Source of the DNA: a virus
DNA length: 39,428 nucleotides
Reading direction: 5' to 3' (one strand)
IMG/VR virus record: IMGVR_UViG_3300047557_001008
Span: 1 to 39,428 of that record
Below, in pieces: positions 18,295 to 32,168 of this stretch. The translations under genes and the position numbers were made by a program. The notes below the pieces were generated by a model. It had not been told where the DNA came from and did not search any database. It saw only the letters and a program-made list of their open reading frames with translations. Within the stretch, counting starts at the first letter, position 1. Every line of letters starts with the position of its first letter.

Positions 18295-20163
18295 CTATCC
18301 GTATGTCTGTTGCCATTGTTCTGCAATGGCTTCATCTAAGTTAATTGAGAATCGTCTCTCTGTCTGTGCTCTAGTAGCCCAACGGTTTTGCATCCATCTG
18401 GCTGACTGTGAGTTCTGTTGCATCAACTCGCGTACACGAATCACTGCAAACCATAGAGCCATCACACAGTCGCTAGGGTTTCTAGTCTCAGGCTTCCAGG
18501 TAATCAACTGCTGTACCAGAGCCTTAAGTCCTTCGCTACCTTCATTGCTTGGTAGTTCTATTGAGTTGTTATCTTGGAATCTTCCATCTCTAAGGCTACC
18601 AAAAAGACTTGCCATAGAAGCCACACCAAAGCTAGTATCCCACTTATTCTTACCAGTGAAGTGAGAGTTGAGTTGGCACCCATACATCGAGAGCCAGTTA
18701 CGCAAGTCGTCATCGAGTGCGTATGCTTTCTGGTGTGCATTGATTTCAATTCTTAACTCTTGTGGTTTGTATCGCTGTACCCAATCTTCAATCAGGGCAC
18801 GAATCTTCATAGGTGTAGGCTCAGTCATGTTTACACAGTCGAGAATGTAAATCATACTGTCTTGTCGGTTATAGGTCAAGACCACCGCTGCCGTGTTACC
18901 CGTCATCGCAGGGTCAAGACCAATAACCGTATAAGCAGATTCTAAATGCTTGGGGTGGCCCGGAGTACCTGGTTTAAGCGGTCCGCGCTTTCGCATACCG
19001 TTGACACATCCTGCAACTGCTGCTGGCGAAAAGATAGCGTCTTCGACGACGTCTTCTTGTTGGTAAACCATTGCCCAGACAGAAGGCGCCACTTCGCTTC
19101 GTCTAGTGAAGAGAGAAGGGCCGTCCCACTTGGGGTAGAGTCCTTGTTCATTTGCTTCATCTTTCTCGCCTTCGGGCCTATCCGTCCATGGCCAAAGGGT
19201 TTTCCAATTCTTAGGTTTCTCATCAAACTCAAGTACGGCAGGTTGTGCAAAGTATGTGAACGGGGATTTGCCACCAGTCCATTGCTGACCGTCTCGAATC
19301 ATCTTATACAAGTCTACGGGAGCAACACGGGTCCCTACGATAAGTAGTTTCCCGTGTCGTCCTAAGCGTGTGATGACTTCTTTCTGAAGCCATTCAATTT
19401 GCTTCTCCCACTCGTGGGCATTGGAGTTCATCACAACATCGTCCAGGATAATCAAGTCGGCACGAGCACCGTAAATCTGTGAGCCAAAGCCTAGGGCTTG
19501 CACCGTAGGGTCTTTCTCGCCAGAGTCTCGTCCGCTTCCTAGATAAATCATGTCGGCAGACCACGTCTGTGAATCTGCTTTGTATCCACCATTCGGGCCA
19601 AAGGCCGTCTGGAGCTTAATCCAGTTAGGGTGGGAAAGTCGTGTCTTGATGGCGCTTAAGAACTTGCGGGCCATACCCTGAGTCTTAGAGACTACGATGA
19701 TTCTTACATTCGGGTCTATGGCTAGTCGGTAAGTCACATAGTTAATCGTGATGACGGTAGACTTAGCGTGCTCGGGTGGAACATTAATCAGGACTCGGTT
19801 AGCTGCGCCGGGCTCGTAAGTCATAGCTGGGTGTAGCCAGCGAGGCTCGCGCCCCTCAATCAAGTCTACCCAATCCTTATGATGGTCAAAGAGCTTGGTA
19901 TCAAGGAACTGCTCAGAGAACTCCTCAAAGGTTATATCCTTCAGGTTCTTCAAGTCAGCCTTGACGCCCTTGCCTTCTAGGCGGGCGGCATCGGCTCGTT
20001 GTTTAAAGTCTTCATCCTTCATCGTCCATTGACGGAAGGTAACCTCATTGCGGTTGACAGAGCCCATAGCCTGGGTGATGGTACTACCCTGGGCCAGCAT
20101 CAGGAGTACCTTCTCCTTAGCCTCGTGCATAGGGATGTCGACCTTACCTGGCTTTCGTCCCAT
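18295..20163 (-). CDS. terL: Terminase large subunit with N-terminal HTH-like segment
   Basis: A 622-aa packaging motor. Residues about 10-65 look like a helix-turn-helix DNA-recognition segment (VLLMLAQGSTITQAMGSVNR, TFRQWTMKD) of the sort usually found in small terminases. The ATPase has a Walker-A-like NVPPEHAKST (127-136) and Walker B LIILDD (237-242). The RNase H-like nuclease begins with GLDPAMTG (415-422, D417 catalytic). The start follows GGAGGACTGACT, a strong ribosome site. It is the first gene of the late leftward unit. The HTH segment may replace a separate TerS. Confidence 0.92.
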   Translation of the reverse strand: MGRKPGKVDIPMHEAKEKVLLMLAQGSTITQAMGSVNRNEVTFRQWTMKDEDFKQRADAARLEGKGVKADLKNLKDITFEEFSEQFLDTKLFDHHKDWVDLIEGREPRWLHPAMTYEPGAANRVLINVPPEHAKSTVITINYVTYRLAIDPNVRIIVVSKTQGMARKFLSAIKTRLSHPNWIKLQTAFGPNGGYKADSQTWSADMIYLGSGRDSGEKDPTVQALGFGSQIYGARADLIILDDVVMNSNAHEWEKQIEWLQKEVITRLGRHGKLLIVGTRVAPVDLYKMIRDGQQWTGGKSPFTYFAQPAVLEFDEKPKNWKTLWPWTDRPEGEKDEANEQGLYPKWDGPSLFTRRSEVAPSVWAMVYQQEDVVEDAIFSPAAVAGCVNGMRKRGPLKPGTPGHPKHLESAYTVIGLDPAMTGNTAAVVLTYNRQDSMIYILDCVNMTEPTPMKIRALIEDWVQRYKPQELRIEINAHQKAYALDDDLRNWLSMYGCQLNSHFTGKNKWDTSFGVASMASLFGSLRDGRFQDNNSIELPSNEGSEGLKALVQQLITWKPETRNPSDCVMALWFAVIRVRELMQQNSQSARWMQNRWATRAQTERRFSINLDEAIAEQWQQTYG

Positions 20164-20263
20164 AGTCAGTCCTCCAGTTAAATCACACTAATAACGCCGC
20201 CCATGAAACGGGCAGTATACCCCCATATAAGTTATATATAATTATATATAATATAATATAAGC

Positions 20264-20290
20264 GAGCGAGCCGAAGAGCGAAGCTCGCTC
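20264..20290. other. GAGCGAGC/GCTCGCTC hairpin with alternative pairing
   Basis: GAGCGAGC (20264-20271) pairs with GCTCGCTC (20283-20290) around an 11-nt loop. A second fold, GAGCGA pairing with TCGCTC across AGC (20276-20290), excludes the first. The element is embedded in TATA-rich sequence. It could be a protein site in DNA or a switch in the late leader RNA. Confidence 0.45.
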
Positions 20291-20316
20291 TATATATGGA
20301 ATTATTATTACATATA

Positions 20317-20353
20317 TAGAAAACCTGTTCAAATCGGGAAACCGAACAGGTTT
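20317..20353 (-). terminator. Intrinsic terminator-like hairpin in the late leader
   Basis: AAACCTGTTC (20321-20330) pairs with GAACAGGTTT (20344-20353), 10 bp around a 13-nt loop. Reading leftward, the stem is followed by TTTTCTATAT, an intrinsic-terminator shape. No rightward gene ends here, so if active it would stop late transcripts before the terminase unless antiterminated. In the rightward direction the tail is less U-rich. Confidence 0.5.
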
Positions 20354-20494
20354 CCCTAATATATTTTTATTTTAGGGGTATAATGTCCGATTTGTATATA
20401 TATGAGGGGGGCTTATAACAGAAATTTTTAGGGGGACTATATGTATATTATATGTCGCTGATTTATCAAATGCCCCCTCAAAGTTCCGCACCGA

Positions 20495-20527
20495 CCTGAG
20501 AGTTTCCTGAGAGTTTCCTGAGAAGGG
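20495..20527 (+). repeat. Three tandem 11-bp units at the late transcription start
   Basis: CCTGAGAGTTT occurs twice exactly and CCTGAGAAGGG once, at 20495, 20506 and 20517, with an 11-bp period. The third unit overlaps the expected start site (about 20523) of the leftward consensus promoter. The core CTGAGA is the same as in the far end of the ten-unit array at 20642-20751, where it lies on the other strand. Confidence 0.85.
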
Positions 20528-20529
20528 GC

Positions 20530-20558
20530 ATTATACCATGACTTCTGTATCTTGTCAA
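20530..20558 (-). promoter_or_regulatory. Late leftward promoter, perfect sigma70 consensus
   Basis: On the minus strand TTGACA (20558-20553) and TATAAT (20535-20530) are separated by exactly 17 bp, so both hexamers and the spacing match consensus. The direction and position fit the start of the late operon that begins with terminase. Repeat arrays on both sides suggest that this strong promoter is repressed early. Confidence 0.85.
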
Positions 20559-20582
20559 GCAATAAAAATGTGATTTCTGTCA

Positions 20583-20598
20583 TAGAACAAGTGTTCTA
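20583..20598. promoter_or_regulatory. Palindrome with GAAC-N4-GTTC core (SOS-box-like)
   Basis: TAGAACA-AG-TGTTCTA has 7-bp arms. Its core GAAC-AAGT-GTTC fits the LexA box form GAAC-N4-GTTC known from Gram-positive bacteria and actinobacteria. It lies 25 bp upstream of the -35 of the late promoter. A host LexA site is inferred; a site for another dimeric regulator is equally possible. Confidence 0.45.
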
Positions 20599-20641
20599 AT
20601 GATTGAGTGGGAGACACTCCCCCCATGCCCCTAGCCCCCCT

Positions 20642-20751
20642 ATATTCTCAGGTAATTCTCAGACTTCTCTCAGTATTTTCTCAGGTTCTATTTACCTACT
20701 GTTCACCTAGAGTTCACCAACACTTTACCTTCCGTTCACCTTCCGTTCATC
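20642..20751 (-). repeat. Ten tandem 11-bp units (iteron-like array)
   Basis: Read on the minus strand, 110 bp divide into ten units of exactly 11 bp. The first six nucleotides of the units are GATGAA, GGTGAA, GGTAAA, GGTGAA, GGTGAA, GGTAAA, CCTGAG, ACTGAG, TCTGAG, CCTGAG, each followed by five variable bases. All keep T-R-A at positions 3-5. There are no gaps, and the units on each side do not match. The helical phasing implies a protein binding one DNA face cooperatively. Confidence 0.85.
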
Positions 20752-20822
20752 TTGGGGGTCTAGTATGCGTCTTGTCATTGAATATCGGATAGATACTCAC
20801 GACACGCCGATTAGATTAGATT

Positions 20823-20850
20823 TTGCGAAATCGTAAAGTCATGATATAAT
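20823..20850 (+). promoter_or_regulatory. Rightward promoter, TTGCGA-N16-TATAAT
   Basis: The -10 TATAAT at 20845-20850 is perfect and the -35 TTGCGA at 20823-20828 matches four of six. It would start transcription near 20857 and give a roughly 180-nt structured leader before the GTG at 21041. It is the most likely first promoter of the rightward unit. Confidence 0.55.
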
Positions 20851-21040: not shown

Positions 21041-21370
21041 GTGACACGACCCTACGCGGGGTCGGGTGTAGGTGTAAGACAACTGCGTACTGTACGGGCT
21101 AGTCGCCCGTGGGGTAAGCGCAACTATAACCTAACGGGCGCACAATGCTCACCCGTTACAGTTACGGACAAGCACGGGCATACCCGTACTGTTGCGCCCC
21201 TAGTACATGGACAAGTCGTACGCCTAGCAAAACGCACTAACCGCGCCATCATGGCAGGAGAGCGCGTACTAACGCCCGACTTGACAGAAGCACAAGAGAG
21301 TGCTATACTAGCACAACTACACGCTAACGCGACACCACGCGCCAAAGCGTTCAACATACACGACAAGTAA
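21041..21370 (+). CDS. Hypothetical early protein, 109 aa
   Basis: A GTG start is preceded by AAGGAAAGGAGAGAGAA. The protein is basic and Thr/Arg-rich (VRQLRTVRASRPWGKRNYNL), with a middle that reads VTVTDKHGHTRTVAPLVHGQ and a C-terminal helix (EAQESAILAQLHANATPRAK). No cysteine cluster and no family recognised. As the first gene of the rightward unit it is a candidate immediate-early protein, perhaps the factor that binds the 11-bp arrays, but it shows no clear DNA-binding fold. Confidence 0.6.
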   Translation: MTRPYAGSGVGVRQLRTVRASRPWGKRNYNLTGAQCSPVTVTDKHGHTRTVAPLVHGQVVRLAKRTNRAIMAGERVLTPDLTEAQESAILAQLHANATPRAKAFNIHDK

Positions 21371-21382
21371 TAGGGGGTAGCC

Positions 21383-21547
21383 ATGACACCACGCATGGCA
21401 GAAATCCTAGCCCACTATGAGCGCCTAAACCGCGCCCTAGATAGGCAGGAGAAGCGAGAGATTTTCGGGCAGAAGGTACGCCTAGCACGGGCAGACTTGA
21501 AGCCAGCAAGTAAGCACACGCGACTTGTGGGCTTACAGGGTAATTAG
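21383..21547 (+). CDS. Small early protein, 54 aa
   Basis: The ATG at 21383 lies five bases after TAGGGGG, the ribosome-site form used repeatedly in this unit. The product, MTPRMAEILAHYERLNRALD then RQEKREIFGQKVRLARADLK and a short tail, is a charged helical peptide. It is too short for confident family assignment. Coding use and spacing match the neighbours. Confidence 0.5.
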   Translation: MTPRMAEILAHYERLNRALDRQEKREIFGQKVRLARADLKPASKHTRLVGLQGN

Positions 21548-21554
21548 TAGGGTA

Positions 21555-21598
21555 GTCGCGCACCGATAGACGGCAAGGGTTCATGACCCTAGCGCGAC
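21555..21598 (+). other. Two-helix stem-loop between small early genes
   Basis: GTCGCGC (21555-21561) pairs with GCGCGAC (21592-21598), and AGGGT-TCATG-ACCCT (21576-21590) forms an inner hairpin stacked next to the 3' arm. The shape recalls an acceptor/T-arm minihelix, but the invariant T-loop A58 and a CCA end are missing. It may end or stabilise the first short transcript. A second small inverted repeat, GCGGA-AAGTA-TCCGC, follows at 21601-21615. Confidence 0.4.
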
Positions 21599-21619
21599 AC
21601 GCGGAAAGTATCCGCATAC

Positions 21620-21648
21620 TTGACACGCCTTAGGGGGTGTGCTAGAAT
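21620..21648 (+). promoter_or_regulatory. Rightward promoter TTGACA-N17-TAGAAT
   Basis: The -35 at 21620-21625 is consensus, the spacer is 17 bp, and the -10 TAGAAT at 21643-21648 differs at one base. The start should fall near 21655, only a few bases before the ATG at 21658, so the mRNA of the 46-49-aa membrane protein may be leaderless or nearly so, as is common in actinobacteria. Confidence 0.75.
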
Positions 21649-21798
21649 ATGGACAACATGCTAGAACTTAGCGTGAGTTCTTGGGGGATAACTCTCTCAA
21701 CCGACCCACTATATTTCAACCTATCATGGGGCTTGACAATAGTGCTAATCGGTGCTATAATTGCCCGTAAGATAGTAAAGGTTAGGAGAAGCAAGTGA
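21649..21798 (+). CDS. Tiny single-span membrane protein, 49 aa
   Basis: ATG at 21649 (or 21658, better placed with respect to the promoter) to TGA at 21798. The product has a polar N-terminus, one transmembrane segment (YFNLSWGLTIVLIGAIIA) and a basic C-terminal anchor (RKIVKVRRSK). The stop overlaps the next start as GTGA. A consensus promoter lies just upstream and another lies inside the gene. Function unknown; a small early membrane protein such as an exclusion or host-takeover factor is conceivable. Confidence 0.55.
   Translation: MDNMLELSVSSWGITLSTDPLYFNLSWGLTIVLIGAIIARKIVKVRRSK
21733..21761 (+). promoter_or_regulatory. Rightward promoter, perfect TTGACA-N17-TATAAT
   Basis: Both hexamers (21733-21738 and 21756-21761) and the 17-bp spacing are exact consensus. 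The promoter lies inside the tiny membrane-protein gene and would start near 21768, 27 nt before the GTG at 21795. Confidence 0.8.
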
Positions 21799-21995
21799 GT
21801 GACAGCGACTACATGCTAGTGCTAACGCCATCAGAATTAGACACGCTACGCACAAGCCTACGCAACGAGAGCGCAAGGCTAAAGGCGCAAGGCTTCACAG
21901 GGCTTCAAGCCTATGTGGATAACCTACGCGATAAGATTTCCAACATGATGATTGACCAAAGTTATGCTAGGCTTGACAACAAGTCAAGCGTATGA
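21795..21995 (+). CDS. Hypothetical early protein, 66 aa
   Basis: A GTG start overlapping the previous stop, with AGGAGAAGCAA upstream. The protein is helical (TPSELDTLRTSLRNESARLK, GLQAYVDNLRDKISNMMIDQ) and resembles a small coiled-coil or helical-hairpin protein. The end of the gene contains the -35 and spacer of the next promoter. No family recognised. Confidence 0.6.
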   Translation: MSDSDYMLVLTPSELDTLRTSLRNESARLKAQGFTGLQAYVDNLRDKISNMMIDQSYARLDNKSSV

Positions 21996-22001
21996 TAGAA
22001 T
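21973..22001 (+). promoter_or_regulatory. Rightward promoter TTGACA-N17-TAGAAT before the amidoligase gene
   Basis: TTGACA at 21973-21978, a 17-bp spacer and TAGAAT at 21996-22001 overlap the last codons of the 66-aa gene. Transcription would start near 22008, about 20 nt before the amidoligase start, making this the dedicated promoter of the amidoligase/amidotransferase pair. Confidence 0.75.
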
Positions 22002-22029
22002 ACGGCAACAAGTAAATCACTAGGGGGTG

Positions 22030-23244
22030 ATGATAGTGCCGATAGATGATGAAGATACGCCCGAAGTAGTATCGTGCTCCGAGTGTCACAGCGAGATAAA
22101 CGCTGGCGACTCGCTCACGATAGACAACGGCGACTCTGTATGCCAAGATTGCTACCGCACATGCGAGCGTTGCGATTGGTCGGGTACAGATAGCGACTCA
22201 TGGTACACAGTACAGGATAGTTCATGGTGCGAAGGTTGCTGGGAGAATAACTCGTTCTACTGTGACAGGTGCGAAGAAACCTTTGACGACGACCGCACGG
22301 GTAGTTACAATGTAGAGCGTTCTCGCTGGTGCGAGTATTGTACTAACGACAATGCTTCGTATTGTGACGATTGTGAAGAATACTATGCTGACGGCGACAG
22401 TTGCCCATGTGGCGGTGGTGCTGGTAAGATACATCAGTATTCTTACAAGCCTAACCCTGCCTTTCATGGCGTTGACCCTAACGGGTTATACATGGGCTTT
22501 GAGTTAGAGATGACCTTCCCCGACATTACTAACAACCTATACAGCATGGCGGTTAGCGGTGTTGAGCCACTAGAGCAAGATAATGTGTGCTATCTCAAGT
22601 CGGACGGCTCTATTGAGGGTACGGGCTTTGAGTTAGTGACACACCCACATACGCTTGGTGCGTATGAGCAAGCCAAAGATTTATGGAATTACATTGAGCA
22701 CCTACGCACGAGCTACGGCGCTCGCTCATGGGATACCGAAAGTTGTGGGCTTCATGTCCATGTGTCCCGTGCTGCGTTCAAGTCGGGTGCTCACACGCAT
22801 AGGTTCTTATCACTAATCTATAAGAACCCACGCGAGATGATGAAGTTAGCAGGGCGTAAGAACTCACGCTTCGCTCGCTTTGATGATGTGTACAAGCCCG
22901 ACGAGTGGGGCTTACCACACTTCTCCTTACAGGAGAAAATACATAGGGGTTATCGCACCGAGCGTTATGGTGCGGTCAATACCAACAACGACTACACACT
23001 AGAGTTGCGCTTCTTTCGTGGCAACATGAAGCGCGAGGGCGTTATGACCGCCCTAGAATTGTGCCACGCTTCGGTAGAATATACCCGTGACTTGTCCGTG
23101 TCTGATGTAAAGTTAGGCATGCTCAAGTGGGAATGGTTCTACGATTGGGTGTCCGCTAACAACGGGCTATACCCTAACCTATACCTACGCATGTCCAAAG
23201 TGCCTAGCGTATCTCTTGACAGCAAGCCACTAATCAACGCCTAA
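22030..23244 (+). CDS. Amidoligase (COOH-NH2 ligase) with four N-terminal zinc modules
   Basis: A 404-aa protein. Residues about 16-127 hold eight regularly spaced Cys pairs, giving four C4 LIM/treble-clef-like zinc sites. The catalytic part has the marks of the glutamine-synthetase-like amidoligase family (Pfam Amidoligase_2): GFELEM near 156, KSDGSI near 190, FELVT near 200, GLHVHV near 240 and LELRFFRG near 326. These enzymes are predicted to use ATP to join a carboxyl group to an amine. The start is ATG 22030 after TAGGGGG; GTG 22036 is the alternative. It is followed after nine bases by a class-II glutamine amidotransferase, the association expected for this family. Substrate unknown. 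Confidence 0.8.
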   Translation: MIVPIDDEDTPEVVSCSECHSEINAGDSLTIDNGDSVCQDCYRTCERCDWSGTDSDSWYTVQDSSWCEGCWENNSFYCDRCEETFDDDRTGSYNVERSRWCEYCTNDNASYCDDCEEYYADGDSCPCGGGAGKIHQYSYKPNPAFHGVDPNGLYMGFELEMTFPDITNNLYSMAVSGVEPLEQDNVCYLKSDGSIEGTGFELVTHPHTLGAYEQAKDLWNYIEHLRTSYGARSWDTESCGLHVHVSRAAFKSGAHTHRFLSLIYKNPREMMKLAGRKNSRFARFDDVYKPDEWGLPHFSLQEKIHRGYRTERYGAVNTNNDYTLELRFFRGNMKREGVMTALELCHASVEYTRDLSVSDVKLGMLKWEWFYDWVSANNGLYPNLYLRMSKVPSVSLDSKPLINA

Positions 23245-23253
23245 GGGGGTGTT

Positions 23254-24150
23254 ATGTGTCTATTAGTTGTCTGTAAGCCTAACGCTATACCAAAGCGAGA
23301 GGAACTTACAGAAGGCGCATGTAGTAACCCACACGGATACGGGTTCGCCATGATAGTTGACGGAAAGATATTCCGTTATCGTACCATGTCTGCTCGTAAA
23401 GCCGTAACAAAGTTTCTTCACATGCGCGAGCAATACCCAAAGGGTTATGCTATATGGCATGCCCGTTACGCTACACATGGCGTAAAGAATGAAGATAATT
23501 GTCACCCATTCCAAGTGGGTGATGATGTTGATACTGTACTAGCGCACAATGGTGTGCTAGATACTTTCATAGGGAAAGATGACAAGCGTAGTGATACGCG
23601 TATCTTCGCAGAGGATACCCTACCTAAACTTGGTGGGGTTCGCGCTTTGGAAGATGAGAATCTGTACCGCATGATTGAGGGGTGGGCTAGCGGTTCTAAG
23701 ATAGCCGTGCTCACCGCCAATCCTAACGCTGAGTACCAACTCTATCTCATCAACGAGAGACTCGGTACTTGGGACGACAACGGAGTATGGTGGAGCAACT
23801 CAAGTTACAAGCGCACTACCTATACTACCTACAAGGCAGAGCCTAAGCCGTCAGTAGATACGACTTCACTAGACTACGACTTAGAGCAAGCCTATTACGC
23901 TGAGTTGTTAGAACATAACGACAGAGAAGGCTATCTCATCATAGACCAATGCCCTATGTGTGAAGCCTTAGTAGACATAGATGTATCCATAGAGTATTGC
24001 CAATACTGTGAAGCATGTATGTCTTGCCAAGCACACTTTATAAATTGTATGTGCTACACACCCAGCTCCGCTAAGCCTAAGCACAAAGAGTTAGACTTTG
24101 ATAATCAGTGGGTTAGGGTGTATAATAAGTACCAAGATACACTAATCTAA
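23254..24150 (+). CDS. Class-II glutamine amidotransferase with C-terminal zinc ribbons
   Basis: A 298-aa Ntn-hydrolase. Cys2 follows the initiator Met and would be the N-terminal nucleophile. Family features follow in order: HGYGFAM (27-33), WHARYATHG (68-76), HPF (84-86), LAHNGVL (96-102) and SDTRIFAE (113-120). Residues about 233-267 hold CPMC, CQYC, CMSC and CMC, two likely zinc sites not typical of GATases. It would release ammonia from glutamine, or remove or transfer a gamma-glutamyl amide. It lies directly behind the amidoligase with AAGGGGGTGTT before ATG, so a two-step pathway is likely. Confidence 0.8.
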   Translation: MCLLVVCKPNAIPKREELTEGACSNPHGYGFAMIVDGKIFRYRTMSARKAVTKFLHMREQYPKGYAIWHARYATHGVKNEDNCHPFQVGDDVDTVLAHNGVLDTFIGKDDKRSDTRIFAEDTLPKLGGVRALEDENLYRMIEGWASGSKIAVLTANPNAEYQLYLINERLGTWDDNGVWWSNSSYKRTTYTTYKAEPKPSVDTTSLDYDLEQAYYAELLEHNDREGYLIIDQCPMCEALVDIDVSIEYCQYCEACMSCQAHFINCMCYTPSSAKPKHKELDFDNQWVRVYNKYQDTLI

Positions 24151-24173
24151 ACACCAACTAGGAGAGCAATTAC

Positions 24174-24434
24174 ATGACAAAAGAACAACTCGTTGGCTTT
24201 GCTGACGAACTACGCGATATCGCCTATCTGCTAGAGCAGAAGGCAGATGAACAAGAGAACTACTACCCACGCGGTACAATTCTCAAGGCACTACCCGTAC
24301 AAGGACGCTTCAAGCCAAAGTCTATGTGGGTTTCACTAGGCGACGGCACATACCGCCATCTCAATGGTAAGAAGGGACTAGTCACCACACATGACAGACT
24401 CGACGGATACACAAGCGTTATCTTCAGCGCCTAA
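24174..24434 (+). CDS. Hypothetical protein downstream of the amidoligase pair, 86 aa
   Basis: The ATG follows TAGGAGAGCAATTAC. A helical N-terminus (KEQLVGFADELRDIAYLLEQ) is followed by a beta-rich part (GTILKALPVQGRFKPKSMWV, GTYRHLNGKKGLVTTHDRLD). No cysteines or membrane segments. Because it comes right after the amidotransferase it might be a partner or substrate, but nothing in the sequence proves that. Confidence 0.6.
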   Translation: MTKEQLVGFADELRDIAYLLEQKADEQENYYPRGTILKALPVQGRFKPKSMWVSLGDGTYRHLNGKKGLVTTHDRLDGYTSVIFSA

Positions 24435-24636
24435 TACAGATGTAGCAGTAGCCGAGCCACTAGCAGGTATGCTGGTGGCAGGTTACATTGTGCTCGTCTT
24501 TCCCAAAGAAACTTCAGAGCGCTCTGTATTTTATGGAGCCTTTGATACAATAGACGACGCTCGTAAGTGGGCGGAGTTGCTGACAGGGTTAGTTGTTATT
24601 CAACCCTTCTATTCACCAGCGATGAACAGAGGATAA
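24391..24636 (+). CDS. Hypothetical protein, 81 aa
   Basis: It overlaps the previous gene by 44 nt. The conserved-looking part starts near residue 30 (GYIVLVFPKETSERSVFYGA, FDTIDDARKWAEL) and ends FYSPAMNRG. Short proteins with Y..F.T.D.A..WA..L followed by Y.P..N.G are common in actinophages and seem to form a small alpha/beta fold of unknown role. The first 25 residues may be non-coding if a later start (ATG 24469) is used. Confidence 0.6.
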   Translation: MTDSTDTQALSSAPNTDVAVAEPLAGMLVAGYIVLVFPKETSERSVFYGAFDTIDDARKWAELLTGLVVIQPFYSPAMNRG

Positions 24637-24637
24637 C

Positions 24638-24967
24638 ATGAACGGACTATGTTCAACCCACCCCAATCCTGATATGTGGTTTCCTGAAGAGCAACCACTT
24701 CAGCGCAAGGGTGGTAGACCAAGCAGAGCTAACCACCGGCGACAGATTGAGAACGCAATCAAGGCGATAGCAATCTGTAGTTACTGCCCTACCCGTGCCC
24801 GTTGCCTTGAAGAGGGTATGAAAGAAGAGAACATAGAGCATGGTATCTGGGGTGGTATGCTTGCTGGAGACAGAATAATCTTGTCACGAACACGCAAGAC
24901 AGGTACAGTTAGAGAGCAAGCAATCAACTTCGCAGAGGGAGTAAAGGCATGGCAAAGTATCTCGTAA
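24638..24967 (+). CDS. whiB-like: WhiB-family iron-sulfur transcription regulator
   Basis: A 109-aa protein with the four conserved cysteines of WhiB proteins (C5, C47, C50, C56) and the turn GIWGG at 69-73, followed by a basic C-terminal region (SRTRKTG). N-terminal P.MWFPE also fits. WhiB proteins bind a 4Fe-4S cluster and act with the principal sigma factor of actinobacteria. The phage copy likely redirects or represses host or phage promoters, as shown for the mycobacteriophage TM4 WhiB. An unusually long Cys5-to-Cys47 insertion carries a basic GGRPSRANHRRQ. Confidence 0.85.
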   Translation: MNGLCSTHPNPDMWFPEEQPLQRKGGRPSRANHRRQIENAIKAIAICSYCPTRARCLEEGMKEENIEHGIWGGMLAGDRIILSRTRKTGTVREQAINFAEGVKAWQSIS

Positions 24968-25350
24968 GATATGGCATAGTGCTAGCGCTTGTTGCGCTAT
25001 TTACTGTGGTAATTGTCGAGCCATTGAAACCACCACATCAGTATAATCATCAGACTACTTGGTCTGTTGATGACAGTAAGGCTTACGCCTACGACCAGCT
25101 TGGCGTATGGCGTGACAAGCAGGTAGCATGTCTCAATAAATTGTGGGGTAAAGAATCAGCATGGAACCCTGAAGCATACAATAAAATAAAAGTCATGGGT
25201 AAAAATGCTGGCGGTATTCCACAACTACTTGGGCTCAACCCTGCGACACCCCCAACCAAGCAAATAGACAGGGGGCTTGAGTATATCTATCATAGATACT
25301 CAACCCCTTGTCGTGCTTGGGCACACTTCAAGAAACATGGGTGGCACTAA
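24949..25350 (+). CDS. Membrane-anchored lytic transglycosylase-like protein
   Basis: A 133-aa protein. Residues 5-24 form a hydrophobic signal anchor (VRYGIVLALVALFTVVIVE). The domain contains CLNKLWGKESAWNPEAYN with E69 as likely catalytic acid, NAGGIPQLLGLNPATPP and a C-terminal RYSTPCRAWAHFKKHGWH, the pattern of short actinobacterial SLT/RPF-like muramidases. It lies in the early rightward unit, far from the endolysin/holin cassette. It may be an accessory lysin acting from the membrane or a wall-remodelling enzyme. It overlaps the WhiB gene by 19 nt. Confidence 0.75.
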   Translation: MAKYLVRYGIVLALVALFTVVIVEPLKPPHQYNHQTTWSVDDSKAYAYDQLGVWRDKQVACLNKLWGKESAWNPEAYNKIKVMGKNAGGIPQLLGLNPATPPTKQIDRGLEYIYHRYSTPCRAWAHFKKHGWH

Positions 25351-25652
25351 TGGGTAAATCATATGGCTCTATCAGAGAGAGAATAAATCTTTGTTCTTCC
25401 TGTGGCAAGCCTGTCGTGGACGACAACTACTACACGATAACAACTAGATACAATAGCGGTAAGTACATGTACCACATGGACTCCGCAGCATGCGCCAACG
25501 CAGACGAGCTAGCAAAGGATTGGTATAGACAGAATGACAGAACAAGAACCAAGACATATAACAGAACTAAAACCCGACTACAAGACGGCGATGGATATAC
25601 GGGGGACACCGACGACAGTGTGCCCATGTGGCTCAGAGATATGGAACCTTAA
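25350..25652 (+). CDS. Hypothetical protein with N-terminal CxxC, 100 aa
   Basis: The start at 25350 overlaps the previous stop as TAATG and is preferred to an upstream in-frame start within the transglycosylase gene. The protein has LCSSCGKPVVDDNYY, resembling half a zinc ribbon, then YHMDSAAC, which could complete the site, and a polar tail rich in Arg, Lys and Thr. The 3' third overlaps the next gene in another frame. Function unknown. Confidence 0.6.
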   Translation: MGKSYGSIRERINLCSSCGKPVVDDNYYTITTRYNSGKYMYHMDSAACANADELAKDWYRQNDRTRTKTYNRTKTRLQDGDGYTGDTDDSVPMWLRDMEP

Positions 25653-25767
25653 GACTATCTTTGACAAAGATGATGGCACGATAGAGTTGTACTTTGTGGA
25701 TATGGAATGCGCTAACTGTGGTACATTAGCTACAGCACCCGTGCCCGAGAATGGTGTACTAGAATGA
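25534..25767 (+). CDS. Small zinc-ribbon protein, 77 aa
   Basis: The visible motif is CPCGSEIWNLKTIFDKDDG followed by ECANCGTLATAPVP, a CxC...CxxC zinc-binding knuckle pair. Very similar small proteins are widespread in actinobacteriophages. The function is unknown; nucleic-acid or protein binding is likely. It overlaps the previous gene by 119 nt in a different frame; both frames carry conserved-looking Cys motifs. A later start (ATG 25591) would reduce the overlap. Confidence 0.6.
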   Translation: MTEQEPRHITELKPDYKTAMDIRGTPTTVCPCGSEIWNLKTIFDKDDGTIELYFVDMECANCGTLATAPVPENGVLE

Positions 25768-25934
25768 CACCAACTAAAGTAGGATTGCCCGAGAATCGTA
25801 AAAGATTGAAGGGCTTAGGGCAAGAGAAGGCACAGAATAAATCCTTCGACGACGGCTGGAACGCTGGCTTTGACGCTGGCTTTAAGGCTGGAATCTTATG
25901 GGAAAGGGAGGGAAAAGACAATGCCGACTTATGA
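25764..25934 (+). CDS. Small early protein, 56 aa
   Basis: ATG at 25764 overlaps the previous stop (ATGA). It encodes MTPTKVGLPENRKRLKGLGQ, then EKAQNKSFDDGWNAGFDAGF and KAGILWEREGKDNADL. The repeated G-W/F-D/K-A-G-F pattern (GWNAGFDAGFKAG) is a typical feature of small phage proteins that form a short helical Gly-zipper-like segment. Function unknown. Confidence 0.6.
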   Translation: MTPTKVGLPENRKRLKGLGQEKAQNKSFDDGWNAGFDAGFKAGILWEREGKDNADL

Positions 25935-26094
25935 ATATAGATGTGGTAAGTGTGACTCACTTACTATACTTTCCCGTGCTGTAGATGACCGAGACGAACC
26001 AGTCTCGTGCGTCTGTGGCTTTGAGTCAACAAGAATATACAACGCTCCCGGTATCCAATTCAAGGGTACTGGATTCTACAAGACAGGAGGATAG
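25921..26094 (+). CDS. FmdB-like zinc-ribbon protein, 57 aa
   Basis: Starts MPTYEYRCGKCDSLTIL at ATG 25921 behind GGGAGGGAAAAGACA. The two knuckles C8-x2-C11 and C30-x-C32 (SCVCGFESTRIYNAPGIQFK) and the tail GTGFYKTGG are diagnostic of the FmdB/CxxC_CxxC_SSSS regulatory zinc-ribbon family, common in bacteria and phages. The family was first described as putative regulators; exact function is unknown. It overlaps the previous gene by 14 nt. Confidence 0.8.
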   Translation: MPTYEYRCGKCDSLTILSRAVDDRDEPVSCVCGFESTRIYNAPGIQFKGTGFYKTGG

Positions 26095-26095
26095 G

Positions 26096-26551
26096 GTGAT
26101 TACCCACCAACTCAACTCAGAAGAAGTAAGTAACCTAATCAAGTCGCACCTATGTGATGACTTGGAGATTGACAATGATGATAACTACTCATTGATACGT
26201 AGCCATGAAGATAAGTTCTATGGCATGGTCAAAGCATTCCCCAATACCAACATTGTAGTTACTAAAGCAGAGCACGATGATATAATCACAACCGCAGCAA
26301 GCGAGGAACTTAGTGCCCTGTTTATAGCAGCTACACCTGAAGGTGTATTCCAATTCAACCTATCGCTATTGCGACTAGAGTTTGAGGTATATACAGATGA
26401 AGGTACGGATACTATGGTTGCCGACCTAGATGTATCCAATGGTACTCAGATACTTGAATGGTATCCTGAGTTCGCAAGTGAAGATGATTACATCGACGCT
26501 CTTATGAGCAACGGAGATGCAATCGGATTCGATGAGAGTGAATCTTGGTAA
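26096..26551 (+). CDS. Hypothetical acidic protein, 151 aa
   Basis: The start is GTG 26096, five bases after a perfect AGGAGG; a longer frame back to 25985 would run through the zinc-ribbon gene and is rejected. The protein is very acidic (HLCDDLEIDNDDNYSLIRSH, YPEFASEDDYIDALMSNGDA) with beta-rich middle (GVFQFNLSLLRLEFEVYTDE). Strong negative charge is typical of DNA-mimic or inhibitor proteins, but no family is recognised. It is the last clear gene of the rightward unit. Confidence 0.6.
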   Translation: MITHQLNSEEVSNLIKSHLCDDLEIDNDDNYSLIRSHEDKFYGMVKAFPNTNIVVTKAEHDDIITTAASEELSALFIAATPEGVFQFNLSLLRLEFEVYTDEGTDTMVADLDVSNGTQILEWYPEFASEDDYIDALMSNGDAIGFDESESW

Positions 26552-26679
26552 AAATAAATAGATATATGCTAGCAGAATTGCTGCGTATGTCTCTTTATCT
26601 GATACCGCTATTCATGTTCACCAGTTTCTTCGGACTTGTTTTCGGAGTCTGGCTCTTCGCTATCTTGTTTGTCAGCTAA
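26545..26679 (+). CDS. Possible hydrophobic mini-protein antisense to the sigma-like gene
   Basis: An open frame runs from TTG 26545 (or ATG 26566) to TAA 26679. From the ATG it encodes 37 residues, MLAELLRMSLYLIPLFMFTS followed by FFGLVFGVWLFAILFVS, essentially one or two membrane spans. It overlaps the 3' end of the convergent sigma-like gene by about 72 nt. There is no strong ribosome site. It may be the last member of the rightward unit or a chance frame. Confidence 0.28.
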   Translation: MVKINRYMLAELLRMSLYLIPLFMFTSFFGLVFGVWLFAILFVS

Positions 26680-27294
26680 GTCTTCATCAAGGTACGGCTT
26701 ACGCCCACCCAACTTATTTACAAGACGCTGTATCGCTCGCTTGTGCCTCATGCGAGCAGCGTCCTCTGTACCAAGAGATAGATAGTTGGCTATCTCCTTG
26801 AAGTCTAATGACTCAGCATGGCGGAAGAATAAAATCTTTCTATCCTCCTTGGAAAGTTTCCAATATGCTGAGTCTACTTCAAGTAATAGCACCTGAATAT
26901 TGCCGCCCTCTGATGGGGCGGAAGGTCTACCACCAGCACTATTAAGATTCAACTTCGGTGCGATATGAAAGTTACCCATCAACACAGTAGGTAACAGCAC
27001 CTCAACTAATCCTGGTTCATAATAATATAAATCACTTACATCATAGCCAACAGTCTTGGCTTTCCACTTCTGACAATAATCCAACGCTTCATTACGCAGG
27101 CTACGATAGATAAGATTCTTAGCATCCTTCTCACCGATTGCTTCCCATGTATCTAACTTATTTGGGTGTTCAATGAACCATTTATATAATGCTTGTCTTA
27201 TATCTTCAAGCTCACATATGGGAAACTTCTTGTGGTATTCAGCAGCGACTGCGTCGACTACATACTGCCAGCGTTCTATTCTATCCCAGTTCAT
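26608..27294 (-). CDS. Sigma-factor-like protein (sigma70 regions 2 and 4)
   Basis: A 228-aa protein. ATG 27294 overlaps the upstream stop as ATGA, the usual coupling here, and is preferred to ATG 27312. The N-terminal half resembles sigma region 2 (ELEDIRQALYKWFIEHPNKL, NLIYRSLRNEALDYCQKWKA). Residues about 147-195 resemble region 4 with a helix-turn-helix (KLSKEDRKILFFRHAESLDF, KEIANYLSLGTEDAARMRHK). The C-terminus is an acidic tail (EEPDSENKSEETGEHE). It may direct host RNA polymerase to phage promoters or act as a non-sigma HTH regulator. It is the last gene of the leftward replication unit. Confidence 0.7.
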   Translation of the reverse strand: MNWDRIERWQYVVDAVAAEYHKKFPICELEDIRQALYKWFIEHPNKLDTWEAIGEKDAKNLIYRSLRNEALDYCQKWKAKTVGYDVSDLYYYEPGLVEVLLPTVLMGNFHIAPKLNLNSAGGRPSAPSEGGNIQVLLLEVDSAYWKLSKEDRKILFFRHAESLDFKEIANYLSLGTEDAARMRHKRAIQRLVNKLGGRKPYLDEDLADKQDSEEPDSENKSEETGEHE

Positions 27295-27683
27295 GGCTTG
27301 TCGTTCTTCCATTTCCTTGTACCAGTTAGCAAATCTTCTACAGTAATTAGATAACCTTTAGATTTATTCGGTGGTATCTCACACGAAATCTCCCTACCCA
27401 ATTGCTCAACAGTTTTCTTTAGGATATGAGTCGGCACAATAAATGTGGACTGTTCAAGTACGAACGCCCAGTATGCTGCCTCAGTTACAGATAATCCTGA
27501 AGGTTCCCATGAACCTGACTTCATATACCAACACTCAGTCTCAATGTAAATGTTGTTGGTAATCCACCACTTCCTGTCGCGCTTGACTTCTACTGTGCGC
27601 CCACCGGTAAGCAACTCTTCAACAAGTTGTTCACCCTTGCGCCCGTATCCAAAGTCAATATCGAATGAGGAGTTCTTTGCCAT
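27291..27683 (-). CDS. PD-(D/E)XK-like nuclease domain protein, 130 aa
   Basis: The N-terminus SSFDIDFGYGRKGEQLVEEL, then TVEVKRDRKWWITNNIYIET, contains a likely E-x-K catalytic motif (EVK) and a second acidic residue (IETE). Small proteins of this FD.D..YG..GE..V..LL type are frequent in actinophages and fit the restriction-endonuclease-like fold. It lies between the sigma-like gene and the Nmad1-like gene. It may process recombination or replication intermediates; catalytic activity is not proven. Confidence 0.65.
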   Translation of the reverse strand: MAKNSSFDIDFGYGRKGEQLVEELLTGGRTVEVKRDRKWWITNNIYIETECWYMKSGSWEPSGLSVTEAAYWAFVLEQSTFIVPTHILKKTVEQLGREISCEIPPNKSKGYLITVEDLLTGTRKWKNDKP

Positions 27684-28084
27684 TACTTATCCCACTTATC
27701 TCTCAGCACTAGTAGTGCAATGATTGCGTAGTTAGCTAGGTCTTTGAATGAATCTTCCAATGACTCGTACTGTGGTGCTCTGTTCTTGTCTATGAGATTA
27801 TTGATGCGAGCAATCTTATCATGAATCCTAACACGTAGTCCGTTGAGAGAACCACCAGGAGCATCAGCAATATTACGAGGGCCATAATCTTTGTGCTTTG
27901 CAAGTAGGACTGACATGAGTTCATCGTATACAATCCTTACATCGTCTTCGAACTGGGTGGTATGTAGTACGCGTGCTTCTTTGTCAGCAAAGGTACGCTT
28001 AGCGTTACTGTTAGGGTATCCGCTTCTGATTTTGTCTGCGTAATGTGGTAGCCCATCCCAGCTAGGTGTTCTATAATCTGCCAT
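27683..28084 (-). CDS. Nmad1/DUF1599-like nucleotide-associated protein, 133 aa
   Basis: Residues 55-130 contain LMSVLLAKHKDYGPRNIADA, then NGLRVRIHDKIARINNLID and YESLEDSFKDLANYAIIALL. This KHKDYG...N..R..DK..R..N L....ESLED...DLANYA pattern is that of the DUF1599 / nucleotide-modification-associated domain 1 family, seen in phages near modified-base or MazG-like genes. An all-helical nucleotide-binding role is likely, but no nucleotide hypermodification pathway is visible in this window. Confidence 0.7.
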   Translation of the reverse strand: MADYRTPSWDGLPHYADKIRSGYPNSNAKRTFADKEARVLHTTQFEDDVRIVYDELMSVLLAKHKDYGPRNIADAPGGSLNGLRVRIHDKIARINNLIDKNRAPQYESLEDSFKDLANYAIIALLVLRDKWDK

Positions 28085-28090
28085 ATCTCT

Positions 28091-28438
28091 TCACTCTCTA
28101 TTCTTGAATAGTTGTTTGAGTTCGTCATCAAAGTTCTCCATCGCATCTTCCACTAGTAAATCATTTAATACATTAGGTATAGCTTCAGGCATGAACTCTC
28201 CCATTGCAAGGGTAGCATAGCAATCCTGTGCTAACTCAGAGACAACATCGGGTTCATTCCTGCGTTGATATATATTCCACATAAGAGTACCTAACATAAG
28301 TCTTATGCCACCAGGTAGAATAAATGCTGGGTTAAACTCTTCATCGTCATCAAGCATATGTTCCACTGCGGTAAAGATATTATCAAACTTCTCTCCACAT
28401 TCAGGACAGGAGGGTATCCTTCCGTCTTCATTAAACAT
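28091..28438 (-). CDS. Hypothetical protein with C2H2-like zinc finger, 115 aa
   Basis: Begins MFNEDGRIPSCPECGEKFDN and continues IFTAVEHMLDDDEEF, a CPxC...H pattern similar to a classical zinc finger with a single clear His. The remainder is helical and acidic. The start overlaps the primase Toprim gene by 8 nt, so the protein is made together with primase. It may be a DNA-binding replication accessory. No family name is given. Confidence 0.6.
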   Translation of the reverse strand: MFNEDGRIPSCPECGEKFDNIFTAVEHMLDDDEEFNPAFILPGGIRLMLGTLMWNIYQRRNEPDVVSELAQDCYATLAMGEFMPEAIPNVLNDLLVEDAMENFDDELKQLFKNRE

Positions 28439-29054
28439 TTAATAGTCCCGCTTTCTGGAGTATTGCATTCGCCCCGTTGCTCGTAAAGAATGAGTTAGCA
28501 TCTTCGCCGTCGGGGAATTGGACGACAGTAACCGGTAGTTCTCGGGCAAGGGAGTTGGCAAATTCTTTTCCTGGCTGGTCTCCGTCTGCAAAGACAAAGA
28601 CTCTTTCGAAATCTGCGAGGAGTCTCGTGTAATGTTTCTTCCAACTATTAGCGCCTGGCACACCAACACAAGGAATGCCGACACAACTAGACATAGTAAG
28701 AGTATCCAACTCACCCTCACATACGCCAATGAAATCACCAGCCCGCTCAATATCAAGAACATTATACATTTTAGTATCAACGCCAGTGAGTCCCATGTAC
28801 TTAGGCTCCACTGCAGGATTGAGCGAACGAAACCGTAAGTCCACAACACCGGTCTTAGTAATGTATGGTATGCTAAGTCTGCCAGTATATATCTCATGTC
28901 CTACCTCAGCTTCCGCGACTACGCCTAATCGTGCCAACCGTGCTACTTCTATTGGAATACCCCTGCTTTTTAGGTAAGCTTCTGCCTGATAAATGTTTTC
29001 CTGGTACCTTGCTGTTGCTCGTTCCAGTAATTCTTTCTGCGAATTCTTTTGCAT
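28431..29054 (-). CDS. Primase Toprim subunit (C-terminal part of split primase)
   Basis: A 207-aa protein with a DnaG-like Toprim fold: VCEGELDTLT (E113 catalytic), GVPGANSWKK, and VFVFADGDQPGKEF (D157, D159 metal-binding). The N-terminus (ERATARYQENIYQAEAYLKS, RGIPIEVARLARLG) matches the linker that normally joins the zinc domain to Toprim. It starts at an ATG inside the zinc-domain gene, overlapping by 149 nt in a different frame. Together the two halves make one phage primase that lays RNA primers. Confidence 0.8.
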   Translation of the reverse strand: MQKNSQKELLERATARYQENIYQAEAYLKSRGIPIEVARLARLGVVAEAEVGHEIYTGRLSIPYITKTGVVDLRFRSLNPAVEPKYMGLTGVDTKMYNVLDIERAGDFIGVCEGELDTLTMSSCVGIPCVGVPGANSWKKHYTRLLADFERVFVFADGDQPGKEFANSLARELPVTVVQFPDGEDANSFFTSNGANAILQKAGLLNV

Positions 29055-29271
29055 CTCTTACCGTAATTCCTTCTTGTTGAGAAATGATTTGTAAACTATT
29101 TCCTTGAACTCCGCATGCAAAGCAGACGAAGACATTGCTGTCAAGGTTGGCGGTACCTGACTGGTGCGTATCTCCGTGGAATGGGCATCGGAGATTAACT
29201 TGCCCGTGGTTTCGTCCAACTTGTGCACCGTAGTGGATAAGCACATCTCTAATACTTGGTAAGTCATTCAT
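28906..29271 (-). CDS. Primase zinc-binding subunit (N-terminal part of split primase)
   Basis: A 121-aa protein with a CHC2 zinc finger: LRCPFHGDTHQSGTANLD (C29, H32) and NVFVCFACGVQGNSLQII (two Cys), as in DnaG. The conserved part ends near DAKEFAERI; the last 30 residues (GTSNSKVPGKHLSGRSLPKK onward) are low-complexity, basic and unlike primase, as expected if translation has left the ancestral frame. The Toprim partner starts within this gene. The start overlaps the upstream gene by 8 nt. Confidence 0.78.
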   Translation of the reverse strand: MNDLPSIRDVLIHYGAQVGRNHGQVNLRCPFHGDTHQSGTANLDSNVFVCFACGVQGNSLQIISQQEGITVRDAKEFAERITGTSNSKVPGKHLSGRSLPKKQGYSNRSSTVGTIRRSRGS

Positions 29272-29617
29272 ATCTCTCTCTCATCCACTGTCCTAAATCC
29301 TGTATAACCCATGACTTTTCTATGCCATGATTGCGACGCTTCACTATGACGAAGGCTGGAGGTATGGTCGCCAATCCCCTAGCCTTCGCATAGTTCTTTG
29401 CCTCAACCTGCGCTTCGTCCCAAAAGGCAGGCAAGTCTAACTTCTTTCTATTCTTTAACTCCATGATGTATGTCTGACCCTGGAGAAATACATACAAGTC
29501 ACCCTCATCTTTGGCACCAGCTTTAGTCAAGCGCTCTGCTACTGCCTCGTGTTCACGAAGCCATCGCATTACATCTGTTTCAAACTGTGCACCTTTGCGA
29601 CCATTAGGGTTAGCCAT
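29264..29617 (-). CDS. Holliday-junction-resolvase-like PD-(D/E)XK nuclease, 117 aa
   Basis: The sequence KGAQFETDVMRWLREHEA..ERLTKAGAKDEGDLYV..TYIMELKNRKKLDL has the E...D..ELK pattern of Hjc/VRR-NUC-like endonucleases: E at the first helix, D in EGDLYV, and E-x-K in MELKN. Length suits a single nuclease domain. It lies between primase and ATPase genes. It is likely to resolve or trim branched DNA during phage replication or packaging. Confidence 0.75.
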   Translation of the reverse strand: MANPNGRKGAQFETDVMRWLREHEAVAERLTKAGAKDEGDLYVFLQGQTYIMELKNRKKLDLPAFWDEAQVEAKNYAKARGLATIPPAFVIVKRRNHGIEKSWVIQDLGQWMRERYE

Positions 29618-29618
29618 A

Positions 29619-29831
29619 TTAAAATTTAACTCCTACGGATACGAACCCAAGATTTAAATCTACACTATAGTGTGAATCACTGAAGATAATATGTATCCCA
29701 AGGTTAAACTGATGGAAACTATAAAAAAATGTTAATCTTGCTTTATCAAACAAACTAACATTCAATGAACCGTATGTTTTATTACTATCCAAGTACACGC
29801 CATATGTATCTGTTGTCTTTATATATTCCAT
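29619..29831 (-). CDS. Hypothetical protein, 70 aa
   Basis: A short beta-rich protein with many aromatic residues (TDTYGVYLDSNKTYGSLNVS, LTFFYSFHQFNLGIHIIFSD). There are no cysteines or membrane segments. It overlaps the upstream gene by one base and precedes the resolvase-like gene by one base, so it is likely expressed. Function unknown. Confidence 0.5.
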   Translation of the reverse strand: MEYIKTTDTYGVYLDSNKTYGSLNVSLFDKARLTFFYSFHQFNLGIHIIFSDSHYSVDLNLGFVSVGVKF

Positions 29832-30019
29832 TAGTATGCGCTCTTATCTTTCTCTAGTATTCTTATTGCCCAGTCAAGTCCGTCCTGTACGCCTTGCGTA
29901 TAAGCATCCTTAGCTGGCGGTTTGGCATCATCAATCTTCTGTATGCACTTGGCAATATGTCTGAGATATTCAGACTGCGCCATCTCTTTAGCATGAATCT
30001 CCAAGTAATCGTCATCCAT
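29831..30019 (-). CDS. Hypothetical helical protein, 62 aa
   Basis: A small acidic-to-neutral helical protein (DDDYLEIHAKEMAQSEYLRH) with a C-terminal segment AYTQGVQDGLDWAIRILEKD. The G.QDGLDWA.R..E pattern recurs in small phage proteins near replication genes. It overlaps both neighbours by one base. Function unknown. Confidence 0.55.
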   Translation of the reverse strand: MDDDYLEIHAKEMAQSEYLRHIAKCIQKIDDAKPPAKDAYTQGVQDGLDWAIRILEKDKSAY

Positions 30020-30801
30020 TATACATTCTCCGGTATGTCATCAACGAACATATATTCAGGGTTGAATGCAATCCAAGTCATAAGCGTTCCGTTTGCGTCA
30101 GCCTTGCCATATCTGTTCTTGACAGGGGCCACGCCCATACTTGTTCCCACGACACCGAGGGTGCAAATAAGAGCAGGTAGTTGAGCAACCTTACCTTGAA
30201 TCGCAGAGCGAGGCTGGCACGGAGTGCCTTGTACAGCCTCAGAAGTATGATGAAGTACAACAACAGCAGCATTAGTAGCACGAGCAAGGTACTTCAACTC
30301 CTTCATAATAGCACGCATAGATGCGAACTCTTCGCCACCATCGGTGGCAACATCCATTAAGTTATCTACAACAATCAGCTGAGGTGGACATCCCCATAGT
30401 TCTTCAAATGCTTGTACCTCTTCATCAATATCCTGAAGTGTAGGTGCTGATTCAAATGACCATACAATGTGGCTACCCTTGGCGAGCACCGCCCTTGTCC
30501 AACCTAAATCAGTATTCAATAATTGTTCAACATCACCTTGATTCTTACCACTAATCATAGATGCTAGGCGCATGGCCATAGTGTGTGCGTTTGTATCAGC
30601 GCTAATGTACAGTGTGGGAACTTTCATCTTCAGCGCAATAGCAAGGGCAAGTGTTGACTTACCTACTCCTGGCGCTGCTGCGAACATCGACACTTCACTG
30701 CGCCTGACGATAATCTTGTTCGACTCAAACGCTTTGAAGCATGACGGTAGCGGTTCCCCACCGATACTTGGGCGACCAACGCTTCTGACAAGTGTACGCA
30801 A
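30019..30801 (-). CDS. RecA/DnaB-fold AAA ATPase (RepA-like helicase)
   Basis: A 260-aa ATPase: Walker A APGVGKST (43-50), YISADTNAHTMAMRL, Walker B QLIVVDNLMD (D146), and a sensor VVVLHHTSEA. The protein begins LVRSVGRPSIGGEPLPSCF. It resembles the compact DnaB/RepA-like helicase or RecA-like ATPase next to primase in many phages. The start is TTG 30801 behind GAAGAAGAA; an in-frame stop (TAG) lies 12 nt upstream. The likely role is replicative helicase or recombinase at the fork. Confidence 0.78.
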   Translation of the reverse strand: MRTLVRSVGRPSIGGEPLPSCFKAFESNKIIVRRSEVSMFAAAPGVGKSTLALAIALKMKVPTLYISADTNAHTMAMRLASMISGKNQGDVEQLLNTDLGWTRAVLAKGSHIVWSFESAPTLQDIDEEVQAFEELWGCPPQLIVVDNLMDVATDGGEEFASMRAIMKELKYLARATNAAVVVLHHTSEAVQGTPCQPRSAIQGKVAQLPALICTLGVVGTSMGVAPVKNRYGKADANGTLMTWIAFNPEYMFVDDIPENV

Positions 30802-30822
30802 TTCTTCTTCTTTCTAAAGAGA

Positions 30823-30857
30823 AGCCGTAGCCAATCCATGACTAACTGACTACGGCT
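30823..30857 (-). terminator. Hairpin between zinc-ribbon and ATPase genes
   Basis: AGCCGTAG (30823-30830) pairs with CTACGGCT (30850-30857) around a 19-nt loop; on the minus strand the stem is followed by TCTCTTT. It could act as a weak terminator that reduces ATPase expression relative to the upstream gene, or as a processing site. The ATPase uses a TTG start right behind it. Confidence 0.4.
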
Positions 30858-30873
30858 CACTGGTTTCATTTAT

Positions 30874-31260
30874 TTAGTTGACAGGCTTGCACTGGTCGAC
30901 TGTACCTTGCGGTGTAGGACATGCCCAAAACGCATAGGGTTTGCCAGTGTTCTTACTGATACCGCTACGATAGATGCGAGCTCCGTGCTTACATGTGGGA
31001 GCTGCGGTACCTGACGCTTCCGACACCGGGGTTGGCGGTAAGGAGGATGGAGGCGTTGTGTTTGTAGTGGAATTTGTAGTCGATAAAGGGGCTACATTAT
31101 ACGCTGCTGCTAGCATCTTGTTTGTTGCAGCAATCTGCGTAGCGTAGTCACCTACACCTTCAAGCAGCACACTGAGTTCATCTGCAGTATTGGCACGGAT
31201 ATTAATCATGTCACCAGTACCAGTCTTATACGAGACTTGCAGTTTCCATTCTTCGTTCAT
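30874..31260 (-). CDS. Hypothetical zinc-ribbon protein, 128 aa (possible ssDNA-binding accessory)
   Basis: ATG 31260 overlaps the stop of the nuclease gene as ATGA. The N-terminal half is helical/beta (EWKLQVSYKTGTGDMINIRA, NTADELSVLLEGVGDYATQI), followed by a Thr/Pro/Ser-rich linker and a C-terminal CKHGARIYRSGISKNTGKPY..WACPTPQGTVDQC, a Cys/His metal-binding module like those in topoisomerase or primase tails. It precedes the ATPase. The single-stranded DNA-binding role is inference. Confidence 0.6.
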   Translation of the reverse strand: MNEEWKLQVSYKTGTGDMINIRANTADELSVLLEGVGDYATQIAATNKMLAAAYNVAPLSTTNSTTNTTPPSSLPPTPVSEASGTAAPTCKHGARIYRSGISKNTGKPYAFWACPTPQGTVDQCKPVN

Positions 31261-32140: not shown

Positions 32141-32168
32141 TATATTATTTATATTATATAATATATAT

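Follow-up and report, generated by a model that had tools for sequence, protein, structure and literature searches.

Results

A divergent phage control region with candidate operators of host regulators

The gap between the terminase gene and a rightward gene block in a relative of the 'Ca. Planktophila' phages probably serves as a divergent control region, in which operators for the host regulators PhoP, RegX3 and LexA set the choice of transcript according to the phosphate and stress state of the cell. Judged by the motifs that it shares with bacterial genomes, the best reading of the region is that of a panel of host-regulator operators, not of a phage-repressor site. The window (the whole stretch of DNA analysed, 39,428 nucleotides) is a virus record of 39.4 kb, whose closest annotated relatives are the Planktophila phages LanE43AprE7/F5 (72% over the terminase); the bacterium lysed by these phages is 'Ca. 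Planktophila landstejnensis'. Genes to the left of 20163 are read leftward, beginning with the terminase, followed by portal and capsid, and ending with the tail. A rightward block (21041-26551) carries genes for an amidoligase, a glutamine amidotransferase, WhiB and proteins without known function, and the genes from 26608 to 39095, among them replication genes and one for a sigma factor, are once more read leftward. The phage showed no lysogeny genes, the OmpR-type DNA-binding domain (PF00486) is absent from its record, and Rfam gave 0 matches. The arrays, promoter and palindrome lie in the divergent gap between the terminase and the rightward block, among the following features.

18295..20163, minus strand: terminase large subunit (phrog_38), which opens the leftward virion operon
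20495..20523, minus strand: array A, three TCTCAGG-N4 units (CCTGAGA on the plus strand), putative PhoP-type response-regulator operator
20530..20558, minus strand: promoter P_L, TTGACA-N17-TATAAT with TG ahead of the -10, 12/12 consensus
20583..20598, no strand: palindrome TAGAACAAGTGTTCTA, candidate LexA (SOS) box
20646..20685, plus strand: array B1, four TCTCAG(N)-N4 units, candidate PhoP-type operators facing rightward
20690..20751, plus strand: array B2, six PHO-box units with an 11-bp period, candidate RegX3/PhoP-type operators facing rightward
20761..20766, plus strand: possible -10, TAGTAT, directly 3' of B2, weak and not kept in most relatives
20823..20850, plus strand: rightward promoter-like site from a promoter scan, TTGCGA-N16-TATAAT
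22027..24150, plus strand: amidoligase and class-II glutamine amidotransferase genes, within the rightward block

A first-pass annotation had described three plus-strand units covering the likely start of a leftward transcript, and CCTGAGA is indeed found on that strand at 20495, 20506 and 20517; array A spans the predicted +1 (near 20523) to +29 of P_L. The perfect-consensus promoter of that annotation was confirmed at 12 of 12 positions (20558-20530, minus strand), and the opposed ten-unit 11-bp array and the palindrome between the arrays are both present as well. B1 and B2 form one unbroken 11-bp register, with 7-mers starting at 20646, 20657, 20668, 20679, 20690, 20701, 20712, 20723, 20734 and 20745; the B2 units read, in order, ATTTACC, GTTCACC twice, CTTTACC, GTTCACC and GTTCATC. 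The core said to be common to both orientations is shared by the three units of array A and four opposed units, and does not extend to all ten, because the remaining six carry a different motif, GTTCACC/TTTACC.

Both motifs are repeated at this period far beyond chance. The window contains five CTCAG pairs at spacing 11 (shuffle mean, 0.0006) and five TTYAYC pairs at the same spacing (shuffle mean, 0.0022), and for each pattern 0 of 5000 shuffles reached five. Exact matches to CTCAG at period 11 and to a GTTCAYC pair occur within the whole window only at 20496-20751. P_L is one of only six promoters in the window with at least 11 of 12 consensus positions; the other five all point rightward and lie in the rightward block (21281-24126), four of them within 21281-22001. 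P_L had been called a late promoter, a label not borne out, since it belongs, as do the five strong rightward promoters, to the host sigma-70 type, and a P_L-like promoter with full consensus is found in only about 7 of 101 relatives, a set that was partly chosen by these motifs and whose members are not independent.

Two further elements were observed nearby. A short hairpin (GGGAGACACTCCC, 20609-20621) lies between P_L and array B, and relatives have similar G-rich stretches. The leader from the arrays to the terminase (20164-20490) looks conserved, even in array-less relatives, and contains a hairpin at about 20330-20362, an AT-rich stretch and TTTGA-N11-TAAA (20482-20462, minus strand), an element seen in 19 of 50 relatives; this leader might serve as a site for packaging or as a phage-sigma promoter.

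TCTCAGG units match a putative operator at a probable-host PhoP-type regulator gene

Since a tandem pattern of 7-bp motifs with 4-bp spacers is typical of OmpR/PhoB-family response regulators, we examined the genomes of probable hosts for the same motifs. A first class search, around L090, returned small-genome actinobacteria unlike Nanopelagicales; the search was hence made in the class around a Streptomyces genome, which led to rhodopsin-bearing genomes, many of 1.2-1.5 Mb, and 25 of that size were chosen. Their size, GC, rhodopsin and class suggest a placement in Nanopelagicales, the GC of the rhodopsin loci being mostly 41-49% in the part of the 25 for which it was available.

CTCAG-N6-CTCAG occurred 58 times in the probable-host genomes, compared with 23 for the reversed control, and its intergenic places fell repeatedly before one response-regulator/kinase pair or before a reductase-like/ApbE-like operon. 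The best PDB match of the probable-host regulator is M. tuberculosis PhoP (E ~1e-85), followed by PrrA (2e-52). The gene for this PhoP-type regulator is present in 15 of the 25 genomes, and all 14 readable upstream regions have, on the strand of the gene, a CTCAG/NNCAG pair with a spacing of exactly 11 bp; another spacing was met in one case, at 14, and the opposite strand never carried such a pair. The probable hosts thus have the operator, with spacing 11, before the gene of its cognate regulator, where an autoregulatory site is expected. Over two units, the three best host sites (TCTCAGGAAACCCTCAGG and two alike) equal the phage TCTCAGGAAACTCTCAGG at 17 of 18 positions.

M. tuberculosis PhoP recognizes TCACAGC-N4-TCACAGC and binds cooperatively in tandem, in a manner extendable to trimers and tetramers (PMC4832192). 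The phage arrays resemble this operator in their 7-bp motif and 4-bp spacer, and the host protein is a PhoP orthologue by best match; they differ in being arrays of three and four and in reading TCTCAGG, as does the probable-host phoP-like operator, instead of the consensus TCACAGC. In the recognition helix, the probable-host protein keeps, in identical or similar form, five of the six residues by which M. tuberculosis PhoP contacts bases; N212, the contact to the motif centre, is replaced by G, a change that may go with the one from TCACAGC to TCTCAGG. From these matches we infer that the TCTCAGG-N4 units are sites for a host PhoP-type response regulator of the OmpR family.

Other regulators were considered for these units. 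CutR was rejected, its motif being TAWATAAA and not CTCAG, as was BldC, whose 9-bp repeats with AATT gave no match, and the literature searched offered no usable motif for MprA.

TCTCAG repeats were also seen at other bacterial loci. In L258, L268 and L277, pairs precede the operon for a reductase-like membrane protein and an ApbE-like FMN transferase, which is a candidate member of the PhoP regulon in the probable hosts. An Anaerolineae locus (L142:1429-1551) has opposed arrays between histidine-kinase-like and membrane-protein genes, in an arrangement like that of an autoregulated two-component system, and Streptomyces loci including L084, L102, L127 and L128 have triple TCTCAG at 11 bp shortly before a tRNA-like gene.

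GTTCACC units and the palindrome match host PHO and LexA boxes

The Streptomyces PHO box, GTTCACC-N4-GTTCACC, is built of tandem 11-nt units, each with seven conserved and four variable bases (PMC6283541). Array B2 follows this pattern with three exact GTTCACC, one GTTCATC and two TTTACC at an 11-bp period; core, length and tandem order are alike, the differences being that B2 has six units and lies on a phage. In the probable hosts, GTTCACC-N4-GTTCANC was found at 10 places in 10 genomes, compared with one for the reversed control. Four of these places lie directly before pstC-pstA (pstC = TIGR02138) and one lies between phoU (TIGR02135) and a PhoR-like kinase/regulator pair; the unit at this last place, GTTCACCTTCCGTTCACC, is present in the phage too, with one base different. 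We infer that the GTTCACC-N4 units are PHO boxes for the RegX3/PhoP phosphate regulator of the host.

The palindrome also has a counterpart in these genomes. GAAC-N4-GTTC occurs close to lexA in 24 of the 25, and the 12-mer GAACAAGTGTTC, which is the core of the palindrome at 20583-20598, is found unchanged at lexA in several of them. The palindrome is presumably a LexA (SOS) box.

Arrays in relatives and in viral collections

For an unselected comparison, a deduplicated set of 50 was assembled from relatives found by their terminase plus E7, F5 and the window itself. CTCAG pairs in this set cluster at a spacing of 11 bp and multiples thereof (43 at spacing 11, 22 at 22 and 7 at 33, with none at 6-10 or 12-16), as befits a direct repeat of a 7-bp motif with a 4-bp spacer. 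TCTCAG arrays are carried by only 20 of the 50 (shuffle mean, 0.035), and the isolates E7 and F5, for which the host is known, have neither array. Scans of viral collections for three TCTCAG units returned 101 stretches, compared with 11 for the reversed pattern, and those for three GTTCAYC units returned 35, compared with 10. Most of the 101 TCTCAG stretches are relatives, in which the array typically lies 335-560 nt from the terminase. The two motifs are also joined in L353 (95.8 kb), which has no detectable similarity to the window proteins used and in which four TCTCAG units run in register into two GTTCATC units; an opposed GTTCACC array was seen there as well (L353:6256-6476).

In the window, L002, L416 and L436, a 12/12 promoter has its predicted +1 at the start of the TCTCAG array or directly beside it. 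Many relatives have TCTCAG arrays in either orientation, terL-facing ones included, with no strong promoter nearby. Of 16 relatives with PHO arrays, a set partly motif-chosen, 15 have them facing away from terL, and a -10 at a fixed distance after the PHO arrays was not found across relatives.

Palindromes of other kinds were observed in the control regions of relatives. Fur-like ones (TGAGAATCGTTCTCA, TGATAATGATAATCATTCTCA) lie upstream of the terminase in some of them (L012, L013 and L016). CRP-like ones, GTGA-N6-TCAC, are present in 58 of the 101 relatives, about 500-700 nt upstream of the terminase; TGTGA-N6-TCACA was not enriched in the probable-host genomes (four places, compared with nine in the control), and two of these four places are near CTCAG pairs that lie within coding genes.

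Proposed mechanism and alternative explanations

If the region is a panel of host-regulator operators, phosphorylated host PhoP bound to array A over the start site would block P_L, as suggested by the position of the array, whose start coincides with the predicted +1. Bound to array B, PhoP and RegX3 would favour rightward transcription. This activation is suggested by the way in which array B shares the strand of the rightward genes and faces them, like host operators relative to their genes, and it is a guess from orientation, because no fixed -10 follows the arrays across relatives. LexA at the palindrome would add an input from DNA damage, and the phosphate and stress state of the host would then decide between the leftward and the rightward transcript.

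PhoP and RegX3 could instead be activators only, switching on rightward transcription, and leftward transcription where the arrays face terL, with array A left as a relic or weak modulator. The position of host operators, upstream and on the gene's own strand, is activator-like, and some relatives have terL-facing arrays and lack a strong promoter. The array nevertheless starts exactly at the +1 of a perfect promoter in several relatives, where a bound protein should block, and the missing fixed -10 speaks against activation too. We consider this explanation unlikely.

The density of sites, 13 units in 257 bp where host promoters have two or three, would suit a decoy that titrates host PhoP and RegX3 as the phage DNA multiplies and so disables the responses of the host, with no role in cis. 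Such a sponge would need neither a location on the terL side, nor a start at the +1 of P_L in several relatives, nor the 15:1 orientation of the PHO arrays, and we regard it as improbable.

The first-pass annotation had favoured a phage-encoded early protein bound to both opposed arrays, in a looped or wrapped complex that silences the virion operon until late infection. The opposed TCTCAG arrays do flank P_L, one of them over the start site, as fits repression of P_L, and phage proteins without known function are available in the rightward block. The binder that this explanation calls for is hard to reconcile with near-identical operators before host phoP-like, pst/pho and lexA genes, with two different motifs, and with a phage that has no OmpR-type DNA-binding domain; moreover, the strong promoter or the opposed layout is missing in most relatives, and no evidence of looping was found. 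A phage repressor is accordingly very improbable. What we retain of this explanation is a repression complex over P_L, its putative binders now being host regulators.

Finally, 11-bp repeats flank a promoter in the R1 parC centromere, and direct repeats of this length stand on either side of the promoter here, yet we reject partition or replication iterons as extremely improbable, because both motif classes match host operators, the neighbouring genes, for terminase and amidoligase, are unrelated, and the scanned proteins include nothing ParM/ParR-like.

Discussion

Phage arrays of CtrA sites in Alphaproteobacteria have been shown to be bound, and 'lytic deferment', in which the state of the host times lysis, has been proposed (PMC9437464). 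The panel of host-regulator operators proposed here is similar in that dense sites for host OmpR-family regulators are clustered in one intergenic control region and recur in several phage lineages. It is unlike the CtrA arrays in its regulators, which would be of the PhoP and RegX3/PhoP types with LexA in addition, in its strict 11-bp tandem arrays, and in its hosts, which are Actinobacteria and not CtrA-bearing Alphaproteobacteria (the relatives infect 'Ca. Planktophila'); moreover, it is predicted from sequence. Cyanophage promoters are bound by host PhoB (PMC10976474), a case in which phage promoters read the phosphate regulator of the host, as they may here. The cyanophage boxes are single and precede metabolic and replication genes, unlike the six-unit array found here in a divergent region beside putative arrays for a second regulator. 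In the temperate phage GIL01, LexA represses the lysogenic promoter (PMC4551915); an SOS box at a phage promoter would be common to both, and here the one candidate LexA box lies among response-regulator arrays. Operators for PhoP or RegX3 on actinophages were not described in the literature searched, which covered few of the subscription journals.

For this group of phages of freshwater actinobacteria as a whole, we suggest, more tentatively, that a combined gate at the divergent promoters, formed by two host two-component regulators (the phosphate one and the PhoP-type one) and LexA, might delay or start virion production according to the nutrient and stress state of the host. Streamlined actinobacteria of fresh water have abundant phages, and little is known of the response of these phages to nutrient-poor hosts. 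Should the arrays act as proposed, lysis of these bacteria would be tuned by the supply of phosphate, and the operators would name the signals, an idea open to testing in cultured 'Ca. Planktophila'. Control of phages by host response regulators, as with CtrA and PhoB, would then extend to Actinobacteria, with several regulators acting at one region, and the virus may sense the condition of its host cell before it commits to making virions.
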